A DNA stretch of 64,000 nucleotides from Pseudomonadota bacterium (GTDB lineage: Bacteria; Pseudomonadota; Gammaproteobacteria; Burkholderiales; Thiobacillaceae), in contig JAJZTS010000001.1 of NCBI GenBank assembly GCA_021848725.1, positions 62,001-126,000 of the forward strand, written 5' to 3'. The notes under the pieces were generated by a model. It saw only the letters and a program-made list of their open reading frames with translations, ran no database searches and was not told where the DNA came from. The position numbers and the translations under genes are program-made. This document shows positions 53,801-56,641 of the stretch, piece after piece (within the stretch, counting starts at the first letter, position 1; every line of letters begins with the position of its first letter).

Positions 53801-54972
53801 AGCTTGTCCAATCCGCGTGCCAGATCGGCCTTGAGGTCGACCACCGACTCCAGGCCGACCGCAATGCGGATCAGCCCGTCGCCGATGCCGGCGTCCATCC
53901 GCTGCTCCGGCGTCATCCGGCTGTGCGTGGTAGTGGCCGGATGGGTGATGGTGGTCTTGGTGTCGCCTAGGTTGGCGGTAATCGACATGAGCCGGGTCGC
54001 GTCGATCACCTGCCAGGCGGCATCCTTGCCGCCGACCACGTCGAAGGCGACGATGCCGCCGCCGGTCTTTTGCTGCCGCATCGCGAGCGCGTGCTGCGGG
54101 TGCGACGGCAGCCCCGGATACAGCACGCGGCTGACCTTGGGCTGCGTCTCGAGCCAAGTTGCCAGTTCCAGCGCATGGCGCGAATGCGCCTCCATGCGCA
54201 GGCTCAAGGTCTCCATGCCCTTGAGCAATACCCAGGCATTGAAGGCGGACAGCGTCGGCCCCGCCGTGCGCAGGAAGGTATACACCCCTTCCATCAGCTC
54301 CTTTTTGCCCAGCACCGCGCCGCCGAGCACGCGGCCCTGGCCGTCCAGATACTTGGTCGCCGAGTGGATGACGATGTCGGCGCCCAACTTAAGCGGCTGC
54401 TGCAAGGCCGGCGAACAGAAGCAGTTGTCGACCGCCAGCCAGGCACCCGACGTATGGGCGATGGCGGCCAAGGCGGCGATGTCGCTCACCTCGGTCAGCG
54501 GATTGGACGGCGACTCCAAGAAGAACAGCCGGGTGTTCGGCTTGACCGCACGGCGCCACTCCTCTGGATCGGTCGGCGAGACGAAGGTGGTCTCGATGCC
54601 GAAGCGGCCCAGGATGTTGTTGAACAATTGCACGGTCGAGCCGAAGATCGAGCGCGACGCGACGACGTGCTCGCCCGCCTTCATCAAACCCATCACCGTA
54701 GCGAGGATCGCGGCCATGCCGGAAGAAAATGCGACGCAACGCTCGGCCCCTTCCAACGCGGCCAGACGCTGCTCGAACATGGTTACGGTCGGATTGGTGA
54801 AGCGCGCATAGATATTGCCTGGCTCGGCACCGGAAAAGCGCGCGGCCGCCTCGGCGGCGCTGTTGAACACAAAGCTCGAGGTCAGAAATACCGCCTCGGA
54901 ATGCTCGTTGAACTGGCTGCGTACGGTACCCGCACGCACGGCCAGGGTCTCAAGCTCGAAATCGTCGATCAT
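53797..54972 (-). CDS. metZ: O-succinylhomoserine sulfhydrylase
   Basis: PLP enzyme making homocysteine from O-succinylhomoserine and sulfide, bypassing cystathionine. From ATG 54972 it has 391 residues; upstream in-frame residues lie in the terminator and are not conserved. Cys/Met-metabolism PLP family motifs: SSGMAAILATVMGLM, the PSNPLTEVSDI block, VDNCFCSPALQQPL and the PLP Lys in HSATKYLDGQGRVLGG. Transcription passes through a SAM-II riboswitch and terminator just upstream, so the gene should be off when SAM is plentiful. Confidence 0.96.
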   Translation of the reverse strand: MIDDFELETLAVRAGTVRSQFNEHSEAVFLTSSFVFNSAAEAAARFSGAEPGNIYARFTNPTVTMFEQRLAALEGAERCVAFSSGMAAILATVMGLMKAGEHVVASRSIFGSTVQLFNNILGRFGIETTFVSPTDPEEWRRAVKPNTRLFFLESPSNPLTEVSDIAALAAIAHTSGAWLAVDNCFCSPALQQPLKLGADIVIHSATKYLDGQGRVLGGAVLGKKELMEGVYTFLRTAGPTLSAFNAWVLLKGMETLSLRMEAHSRHALELATWLETQPKVSRVLYPGLPSHPQHALAMRQQKTGGGIVAFDVVGGKDAAWQVIDATRLMSITANLGDTKTTITHPATTTHSRMTPEQRMDAGIGDGLIRIAVGLESVVDLKADLARGLDKL

Positions 54973-54985
54973 CGTAATCCCCAAA

Positions 54986-55028
54986 AACAAAAAACCCGTT
55001 TTGCGCTTGCGCTGCCAAAACGGGTTTT
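54986..55028 (-). terminator. Rho-independent terminator, expression platform of the metZ leader
   Basis: Perfect 13-bp stem, 55016-55028 with 54991-55003, loop of 12, then on the minus strand TTTTTTGTTTTTGG. It lies immediately after the riboswitch and 14 bases before the metZ ATG, too close for a separate metZ promoter between them, so it is best read as the riboswitch-controlled terminator rather than the purF terminator. Confidence 0.88.
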
Positions 55029-55085
55029 CCCACGCTTTAGCTGGATTTTTTACGCGCCCGCAAGCTGTTCTCAAATCGGCGCGGC
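55029..55085 (-). promoter_or_regulatory. SAM-II riboswitch aptamer upstream of metZ
   Basis: On the minus strand the transcript reads CGCGCC-GAUUUGA at the 5' end, GCUUGC in the loop, GGCGCG closing the P1 stem, then A-rich AAAAAAU and AGCUAAAGCGUGGG. P1 pairs 55083-55078 with 55058-55053 (six GC pairs). GCUU in the loop can pair with AAGC in the 3' strand to form the pseudoknot. GAUUU, GCUUGC and GCUAAA are the conserved blocks of the SAM-II (metA) class as I know it, and metZ is a typical target. Confidence 0.85.
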
Positions 55086-55089
55086 TTCA

Positions 55090-55118
55090 AAATTACTCTG
55101 GCGGCGAAGCCATGTCAA
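55090..55118 (-). promoter_or_regulatory. Sigma-70 promoter of metZ
   Basis: Minus strand: perfect -35 TTGACA (55118-55113), 17-base spacer, -10 TAATTT (55095-55090). The predicted start, seven bases on at about 55083, is the first base of the riboswitch P1 stem. It lies in the gap just after the purF stop, so metZ has its own regulated transcript. Confidence 0.75.
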
Positions 55119-55123
55119 TCAGT

Positions 55124-56641
55124 TCATACGGTGCTCAGGTTCAAGTGCATCTGCCGTGTTGGCAACGATGCCGACGCCGACGACGCGCCGCTACGCTGCG
55201 CTTCCAAGCGAGCCAAGTACTCCTCCGACACATTGCCGGTGATGTAGTGGCCGTCGAAGCACGAGGCATCGAAGCGCTTGATATTCGGGTTGAGCCCTTG
55301 CACCGCCGCGATCAGGTCGGGCAGGTCTTGGTAGATCACCGCATCGGCCCCGATCTCGCGCGCGATCTCTTCGTCGGTACGACCGGTGGCGAGCAATTCC
55401 GCACGCGTCGGCATGTCGATGCCATAGACATTGGGGAAGCGCACCGGCGGGCTGGCCGACGCGAAGTAGACCGATCGCGCCCCCGCCTCGCGGGCCATCT
55501 GGATGATCTCGCGGCTGGTGGTGCCACGCACGATGGAATCGTCCACCAGCAGCACGTTCTTGCCCTTGAATTCCAACGCCATCGCGTTGAGCTTCTGGCG
55601 CACCGATTTCCGGCGCACGCCCTGCCCCGGCATGATGAAGGTACGGCCGATATAGCGGTTCTTGATGAAGCCTTCGCGGTAGTCGATGCCGAGCCGGTTG
55701 GCCAATTGCAGCGCGCTCGGCCGGCTGGTATCCGGGATCGGGATGACCACATCGATCTTCAGATGACCGAACTGGCGCTTGATCTTCTCGGCCAAATACT
55801 CGCCCATGCGCAGGCGGCTCTCATAAACGGATATGCCATCGATCACCGAATCGGGCCGGGCGAAATAGACATACTCGAAGATGCATGGATTCAACTGGGC
55901 GCCTTCGATGCACTTGCAATTGAAGAAGTGGCCGTCCAGGGTGACGACGATGGCCTCGCCCGGCTGCACGTCGCGCTCCAAGCGGAAGCCCATGGCGTCG
56001 AGGGTGACGCTCTCGGATGCCACCATCCATTCGGTGCCTGCCTCGCTTTCTTGCTTACCGATCACCAGGGGTCGGATGCCGAACGGGTCACGGAAGGCCA
56101 CCAGGCCGAAGCCCGCGATCATCGCCACCACGGCATACGATCCCTGGCAGCGGCGATGCACACCGGCGACCGCCTCGAATACGGCCTCGACCGTGAGGCG
56201 ATGGTCCTTGACCGCCGCATTGAGCTCATGGGCCAGGACATTGAGCAGTACTTCGGAATCCGAACCGGTATTCACGTGGCGCAGGTCCTGGCGAAAGATT
56301 TCTTCCTGCAGGCGTTCGGTATTGGTCAGGTTGCCGTTGTGTGCGAGCACGATGCCGAACGGCGAATTTACATAGAACGGCTGCGCCTCGGCCGAACTGG
56401 CCGCGCTGCCTGCGGTCGGATAGCGCACCTGCGCCACACCGGCATTGCCCACCAGATTGCGCATGTCGCGGGTGCGAAAGACGTCGCGCACCATGCCGCT
56501 GTTCTTGTGCATGTGGAACATATTGCCGTCGGCGGTAACAATGCCTGCGGCATCCTGGCCGCGATGCTGCAGCAGTTGCAAGCCGTCATACAGCAACTGA
56601 TTCACGGGCTGATGCGAAACGACTCCGATAATCCCGCACAT
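55124..56641 (-). CDS. purF: Amidophosphoribosyltransferase
   Basis: First step of purine synthesis: PRPP plus glutamine to phosphoribosylamine. The 505 residues (E. coli 505) start MCGIIGVVSH, where Cys2 becomes the N-terminal nucleophile of the glutaminase domain; the synthase domain has the PRPP motif VLLVDDSIVRGTTSREI and the FIKNRYIGRTFI block. Preceded by cvpA, the common operon pairing. Confidence 0.98.
   Translation of the reverse strand: MCGIIGVVSHQPVNQLLYDGLQLLQHRGQDAAGIVTADGNMFHMHKNSGMVRDVFRTRDMRNLVGNAGVAQVRYPTAGSAASSAEAQPFYVNSPFGIVLAHNGNLTNTERLQEEIFRQDLRHVNTGSDSEVLLNVLAHELNAAVKDHRLTVEAVFEAVAGVHRRCQGSYAVVAMIAGFGLVAFRDPFGIRPLVIGKQESEAGTEWMVASESVTLDAMGFRLERDVQPGEAIVVTLDGHFFNCKCIEGAQLNPCIFEYVYFARPDSVIDGISVYESRLRMGEYLAEKIKRQFGHLKIDVVIPIPDTSRPSALQLANRLGIDYREGFIKNRYIGRTFIMPGQGVRRKSVRQKLNAMALEFKGKNVLLVDDSIVRGTTSREIIQMAREAGARSVYFASASPPVRFPNVYGIDMPTRAELLATGRTDEEIAREIGADAVIYQDLPDLIAAVQGLNPNIKRFDASCFDGHYITGNVSEEYLARLEAQRSGASSASASLPTRQMHLNLSTV

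Follow-up and report, generated by a model that had tools for sequence, protein, structure and literature searches.

The leader of metZ in the window, by which we mean the whole 64,000-nucleotide stretch of DNA analyzed, is very probably a SAM-II riboswitch sensing S-adenosylmethionine (SAM), judging from its sequence. We are confident that at high SAM it would switch metZ off by premature transcription termination. The leader itself is an ordinary new copy of an already known riboswitch class. On the minus strand from 55118 to 54970, TTGACA, a 17-nt spacer, and TAATTT lead into a SAM-II-like aptamer, after which come a U-run hairpin, GGGGA, and, at 54972, the ATG of metZ (Table 1).

Table 1. 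Features of the metZ leader and the flanking genes, in window coordinates.
Feature	Position	Strand	Evidence
-35 element TTGACA	55113..55118	minus	sequence; TTGAC conserved across leaders
-10-like element TAATTT, spacer 17 nt	55090..55095	minus	sequence; weak, 3/6 to TATAAT
SAM-II (SAM_alpha) riboswitch match, whole model span	55020..55092	minus	Rfam RF00521, own model R1
P1 5' strand CGCGCC	55078..55083	minus	folds; P1 covariation in 25 aptamers, own copy included
Loop L1 block GAUUUGA	55071..55077	minus	sequence; nearly invariant in 25 aptamers
P2 pseudoknot 5' strand CAGCUUGC	55060..55067	minus	sequence; 99.4% of P2 cells paired
P1 3' strand GGCGCG	55053..55058	minus	folds; 25-aptamer alignment
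P2 pseudoknot 3' strand GCUAAAGCG, also antiterminator 5' strand	55033..55041	minus	alignment and folds
Antiterminator hairpin, 11 pairs and one bulge; excludes P2 and terminator	55014..55041	minus	folds
Intrinsic terminator hairpin	54991..55028	minus	folds, shuffles
U tract TTTTTTGTTTTT	54983..54994	minus	sequence
SD-like GGGGA	54978..54982	minus	sequence
metZ, O-succinylhomoserine sulfhydrylase, 391 aa	53797..54972	minus	NCBIfam NF006003 and TIGR01325 above cut-off, Pfam PF01053
purF, upstream neighbor, outside the switch	55124..56641	minus	TIGR01134, 519 bits, cut-off 350

A first-pass annotation of this DNA had placed a SAM-II aptamer ahead of metZ and proposed an Rfam covariance search as a check. 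That search (cmscan, Rfam 15) gave a significant match to RF00521 at 55092-55020 on the minus strand, with 40.9 bits against a curated cut-off of 36, so the assignment was not refuted. The E-value was 8.7e-6 with 64 kb searched and 4.8e-8 with 351 bases searched. The window's own genome (G000; 2.38 Mb, 107 contigs, 89% complete) has no RF00521 match at E<=0.001 apart from the metZ leader. We also built a covariance model, R1, from 25 aligned aptamers; it matched 55096-55031 with 78.8 bits, though the window copy was among its training sequences and its E-values are rough. Alignments to the RF00521 model and to relatives place the SAM-II blocks GAUUUG, GCUUGC, and GCUAAAG in the leader. The blocks that had been picked out by eye are intact where they were claimed to be: GATTTGA at 55077-55071, GCTTGC at 55065-55060, and GCTAAAGC at 55041-55034. 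Two gaps in its P2 region, one of 2 and one of 4 model positions, set the window copy apart from the RF00521 consensus. A methionine or SAM gene, as expected for SAM-II, lies downstream, as metZ was recognized by NF006003 (720.6 bits) and TIGR01325 (609.8 bits) in a profile search.

Across the 25 aptamers, the window's included, three of the six P1 pairs change on both sides. P2 is present, with its pairs kept in 99.4% of cells, yet five of its seven pairs are invariant and none changed on both sides. Covariation thus speaks for P1, and conservation without covariation for P2. Together the two helices are paired in 97.8% of cells versus 94.8% after shuffling, with none of 500 shuffles reaching 97.8%. 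Neither P1 alone (z -0.48) nor the whole leader (z -0.95) is unusually stable compared with shuffles.

Upstream of the aptamer, the proposed TTGACA-17-TAATTT promoter could be read at 55118-55090. Of 187 unique leaders, 141 carry TTGAC 25-60 nt ahead of GATTTGA, mostly at 40-46 nt, and 46 lack it in that range, while 50 mononucleotide shuffles gave a mean of 4.9 and a maximum of 9. This enrichment agrees with Corbino 2005 (PMC1273637), where P1 is described as closely preceded by near-consensus promoters and P2 as followed in many cases by putative terminators. A generic promoter scan requiring at least 4/6 per hexamer does not list the TTGACA-17-TAATTT promoter because TAATTT is only 3/6 to TATAAT. 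The same kind of scan picked a promoter-like match within the aptamer (55074-55045), rejected as the conserved TTGAC sits upstream of the aptamer. With the 5' end of P1 at 55083, 6 nt past the -10 element, it is plausible that transcription starts at the first aptamer base or its neighbor, near 55083-55084, as the first-pass annotation had suggested. We also rejected a reading of the leader as coding DNA, with metZ beginning from a TTG at 55074, because the blocks are common to metX, metH, and metK leaders. The gene order was given as cvpA-purF-metZ. For metZ and purF this is backed by scores above cut-off, while cvpA has below-cut-off support only (NF008100, 76.5 bits versus a cut-off of 264). 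As purF was found on 74 of 241 loci, duplicates included, an arrangement with purF beside SAM-II and metZ is common.

A U-run terminator had been noted before metZ, and the fold of 55027-54986 agrees, with a dG of -18.0 kcal/mol (z -3.1; one of 200 shuffles equal). The gap to the ATG had been put at 14 bases; counted from the end of the first U run (54994-54989), it is 16 nt. A generic terminator scan of the locus found none, and its rules for stems and loops are the probable reason. Part of the terminator 5' arm, CCCGUUUUGGC (55024-55014), is complementary to GCUAAAGCGUGG (55041-55030), and the resulting antiterminator hairpin has a dG of -15.2 (z -2.5; 6 of 200 shuffles equal; fold of 55042-55005). 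The folds are mutually exclusive. A transcript folded before the terminator 3' arm is made forms the antiterminator (-28.1). When the P2 strands of the same partial transcript are blocked, as a proxy for the SAM-bound state, the antiterminator is lost (-17.4). The complete leader folds into the terminator both unblocked (-36.5) and P2-blocked (-33.5).

The antiterminator pairing is enriched across leaders. Among 182 unique leaders, 131 have a terminator by our own criterion, and in 53 of these the GCTAAAGCG/GCUAAAGCG block pairs with the terminator 5' arm and loop better than shuffles do (p<=0.05). The control blocks reached that level in 20 (reversed), 0 (complement), and 8 (other P2 strand) of the 131. 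The reversed block is above the 5% expectation, so composition explains part of the pairing signal. In a larger set, 149 of 198 unique leaders have a terminator and 143 of the 149 carry the standard block, for which the mean duplex energy is -7.10 versus -5.01 for the reversed block (p 6e-11). Because the leaders are related, a comparison over 49 groups without a shared 10-mer is the fairer test; there the means are -6.34 and -4.85 (p 0.002). Six leaders have an altered block, and in these the arm does not follow: the leader's own block pairs better in one and worse in two. The by-eye complement of the terminator loop, CAGCUUGC, was rejected as the antiterminator strand, being at about chance (8/131).

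In the model that we propose, transcription would begin at the aptamer. In the absence of SAM, free GCUAAAGCG would pair with the terminator 5' arm (55041-55030 with 55024-55014), and with this antiterminator formed the polymerase would read through and metZ would be made. In the presence of SAM, P2 would close round the ligand and sequester GCUAAAGCG, the terminator would form, and a leader RNA of about 100 nt would be released. SAM as the ligand, the start site, and the direction of control are the parts of the model that we infer.

A leader of the same class and gene name, with the same prediction of SAM-dependent termination, has been described in Sinorhizobium meliloti (Scheuer 2022, PMC9373788). 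Its metZ SAM-II leader gave an approximately 100-nt RNA of termination size on Northern blots, more of it under high SAM (PMC9373788). That leader belongs to another proteobacterial class and was seen by experiment, whereas the window leader is known from its sequence. The same study also provides a reason to consider that the metZ leader, while a true SAM-II, acts mainly on translation or RNA stability with a terminator that does not respond to SAM: the terminator behind the S. meliloti metA SAM-II is predicted to be SAM-insensitive, and effects on mRNA stability are reported (PMC9373788). Some SAM-II-like leaders, such as the metK type described below, look translational as well, and 49 of the 198 leaders lack a terminator by our own criterion, so termination may not be the sole mode in the family. 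For the metZ leader this reading is unlikely, as its terminator 5' arm is complementary to a P2 strand and the metZ SD lies past the terminator, distant from the aptamer. SAM-responsive termination remains our preferred reading for metZ.

To determine how common such leaders are in the window's bacterial group, we searched related genomes. RF00521 matched 23 of 61 genomes at E<=0.001, the window's own included, and only five of the 61 had a match above the cut-off. R1 was run on 300 genomes sampled evenly across the order, a set including some that had supplied R1 training sequences, and 232 of the 300 had a match at E<=0.001. SAM-II leaders are therefore common but under-annotated in this group, and the Rfam threshold misses many of the betaproteobacterial copies. 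The window and the 300-genome set are from the same order, which we take to be Burkholderiales in the GTDB sense. R1 matches at E<=0.01 were also found in 16 genomes without an RF00521 match in the 61-genome search, from 32 hand-picked genomes that all matched and that give no estimate of prevalence. An exact pattern occurred in at least 119 stretches of named genomes. Among the matches listed are Nitrosospira, Novimethylophilus, Thauera, Zoogloea, Paraburkholderia, Herbaspirillum, and Halomonas, and also Alphaproteobacteria. Zeimonas, Parachitinimonas, and Aquitalea belong to the same order as the window. The view that the metZ leader has degenerated, no longer binds SAM, and is a fixed attenuator or a mere spacer between purF and metZ is very improbable given these related matches. 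SAM-II matches also precede metZ in four of five genomes of the same genus (G001, G003, G004, and G005, with none in the 71%-complete G002), and in the window copy the RF00521 score is above cut-off and the conserved blocks are intact.

The genes downstream are mostly of methionine metabolism. After 192 pattern matches, the longest ORF was of the metZ/metY type in 66 cases, metX in 28, metH in 14, metK in 4, and of a transporter type in 6; this grouping is crude, with duplicates included and many ORFs small or misread. For 28 R1 matches in 14 named genomes the gene was metX (nine), metZ (five), a distant metZ relative (one), metK (five), or metH (two, in one of which the metH match came only 841 nt further on). 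Four of the remaining matches precede a small unknown ORF, and at two nothing was recognized by ten reference proteins. Several relatives have double SAM-II arrangements, a layout already known from 44 examples (PMC9481103). Elsewhere in the window, whose Rfam 15 matches above cut-offs number three with RF00521 among them, are a Betaproteobacteria toxic small RNA (RF02278, 13766-13828, minus strand, 65.2 bits) and a tRNA with a long variable arm (RF00005, 24759-24846, minus strand, 57.3 bits).

The first-pass annotation took a betaproteobacterial SAM-II to be unusual. This was wrong, given the 232 genomes above and the inclusion of Bordetella bronchiseptica among the SAM-II examples of Corbino 2005 (PMC1273637). 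SAM-II with terminators in β-proteobacteria was also mentioned in 2007. The window copy shares with the SAM-II of Corbino 2005 the P1, L1, and P2 blocks, a promoter before P1, a terminator before the gene, and a methionine gene, and differs in being beta- and not alphaproteobacterial. In the open-licence literature searched, we found no paper that treats the SAM-II riboswitch, Betaproteobacteria, and metZ jointly, and one was listed for the riboswitch together with Betaproteobacteria.

Two other reports appear to concern the same leaders. A new "metXZ" element of β-proteobacteria, containing a pseudoknot and a terminator, was described in Leyn 2014: of 35 genomes, 30 have it before metX, and it precedes metZ in three Methylophilales, Nitrosospira multiformis, and Thiobacillus denitrificans. 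SAM_alpha is given there for two α-proteobacterial lineages (PMC4239095). The metXZ element is like the SAM-II leaders here in its metX and metZ genes, in overlapping taxa (for metZ, Methylophilales and Nitrosospira), and in combining a pseudoknot with a terminator. It is unlike them in being presented as new, with a different pairing scheme and no ligand named. In the window and its relatives we find these of its features: a position upstream of metX or metZ in β-proteobacteria, a pseudoknot, and a terminator. Since genes, taxa, and anatomy agree, we take the two as one, an identity that we infer from a comparison through text and legends and not letter by letter.

Khoo 2012 listed Bp2_Cand287_SIPHT among the candidates tested by RT-PCR (the body text once says Bp1), reported methionine genes downstream of it, drew purF, metZ, and metX in the figure of its neighborhood, and suggested a cis element (PMC3521395). 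The corresponding Rfam family, Bp2_287 (RF02424), is labeled an sRNA and its model fits the strand opposite to SAM-II; in lying upstream of methionine genes the candidate is like the SAM-II leaders. RF02424 matches the window at 54989-55110 on the plus strand with 25.0 bits (E 8.5e-4 in 351 bases), which would be expected if the functional transcript were a plus-strand sRNA of that family. This is scarcely credible for the metZ leader, as the match is far under the cut-off of 70 bits, the promoter and the methionine gene are oriented in the SAM-II direction, and Khoo 2012 itself proposed a cis element before methionine genes (PMC3521395). In addition, RF02424 gave 13 matches in 12 of 100 genomes of the order, none over the cut-off of 70, and all 13 overlie SAM-II matches on the other strand. 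Judging by these sub-threshold overlaps, RF02424 appears to be SAM-II leaders read from the opposite strand. One kind of leader has apparently entered the literature on three occasions: in 2005 as SAM-II, in 2012 as the "sRNA" Bp2_Cand287, and in 2014 as the orphan "metXZ element". A 2015 transcription-start study in B. cenocepacia compared long leaders with Rfam and reported a SAH riboswitch (PMC4603805), an outcome that would fit with the Rfam threshold missing SAM-II copies.

The window's own genome has a second R1 match, outside the window, at G000:C62:80268-80349 (locus L174:1513-1584; 29.1 bits, E 3.7e-6), and the gene right after it is metK (TIGR01034, 566.9 bits). Rfam gave no match at E<=1 at this leader and none to the metK element at E<=0.5 on fourteen further metK loci. 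A SAH riboswitch lies 3' of metK in this genome (L174:2870-2945, 60.5 bits, Rfam). The consensus of the metK type is GUUAA...GACAAMUUGC...GCUAAAGCGUC, followed by an anti-SD and the SD. It differs from canonical SAM-II in an L1 of GAGUUAA and in a P2 in which an A replaces the pairing G of the canonical form. A strict pattern for this type occurs in 57 of the 300 genomes of the order, and the reversed control gave none among the matches listed; being exact, the pattern misses variants. The 51 unique occurrences comprise 39 before metK and 12 before a small ORF. Of the metK alignments, A2 holds 23 of 25 leaders, L234 and L235 being omitted as inserts push P1 out of the stretch, and A3 misplaces P1 in some rows.

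All five P1 pairs are complete in 44 of 47 unique metK leaders, as CCGCC/GGCGG (32), TCGCC/GGCGA (7), TCGCT/GGCGA (2), CCGTC/GACGG (1), ACGCC/GGCGT (1), and GCGCT/AGCGC (1). The mean is 4.94 pairs out of 5, versus 4.65 with partners swapped among leaders (highest swap 4.74). In the 47 leaders, the stretch right after GCUAAAGCGUC pairs with the SD region with a mean of -14.0 kcal/mol, compared with -9.9 when partners are swapped (-11.2 in the best of 50 swaps) and -8.8 for a shuffled strand; the pairing is weaker than -7 in seven. Pairing above both controls fits a translational off-switch on metK, and we consider the metK leader a candidate for such control by SD masking. In 2014 metK was stated to be without a known methionine regulator in this group. 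We found no report of the diverged leader in the titles or abstract openings listed by searches of the open-licence literature, and it is not mentioned in the portions consulted of PMC2864571 or PMC12452182.

SAM-II-type leaders, some of them double, also lie before a small ORF of about 100 aa beginning MYDC or MFDC (L005, L075, L077, L157, L166, L264-L266, and L269-L271). Of the 12 small-ORF cases of the metK-type pattern, seven match MYDC/MFDC-type references and five match none yet also begin MYD. Two proteins of this type had no Pfam match (E<=0.1) or NCBIfam match (E<=0.001). From its leaders, this small protein is possibly under SAM control.

Within the window alone, this is routine annotation, with a familiar kind of switch ahead of a methionine gene. 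Beyond it, the result joins three separately reported elements into one class, and the antiterminator pairing offers a testable model in a riboswitch class of which the best characterized member probably works at the level of translation. The metZ leader also led to a metK variant unseen by Rfam, the less expected result and one that lies outside the window. Taken together, we think it likely that SAM-II is the main SAM sensor of betaproteobacterial methionine genes, overlooked because the Rfam model suits Alphaproteobacteria better, that the metXZ element and Bp2_287 are both SAM-II, and that a diverged subtype controls metK translation. The window's organism would then have both forms, with metZ controlled by termination and metK by SD masking.
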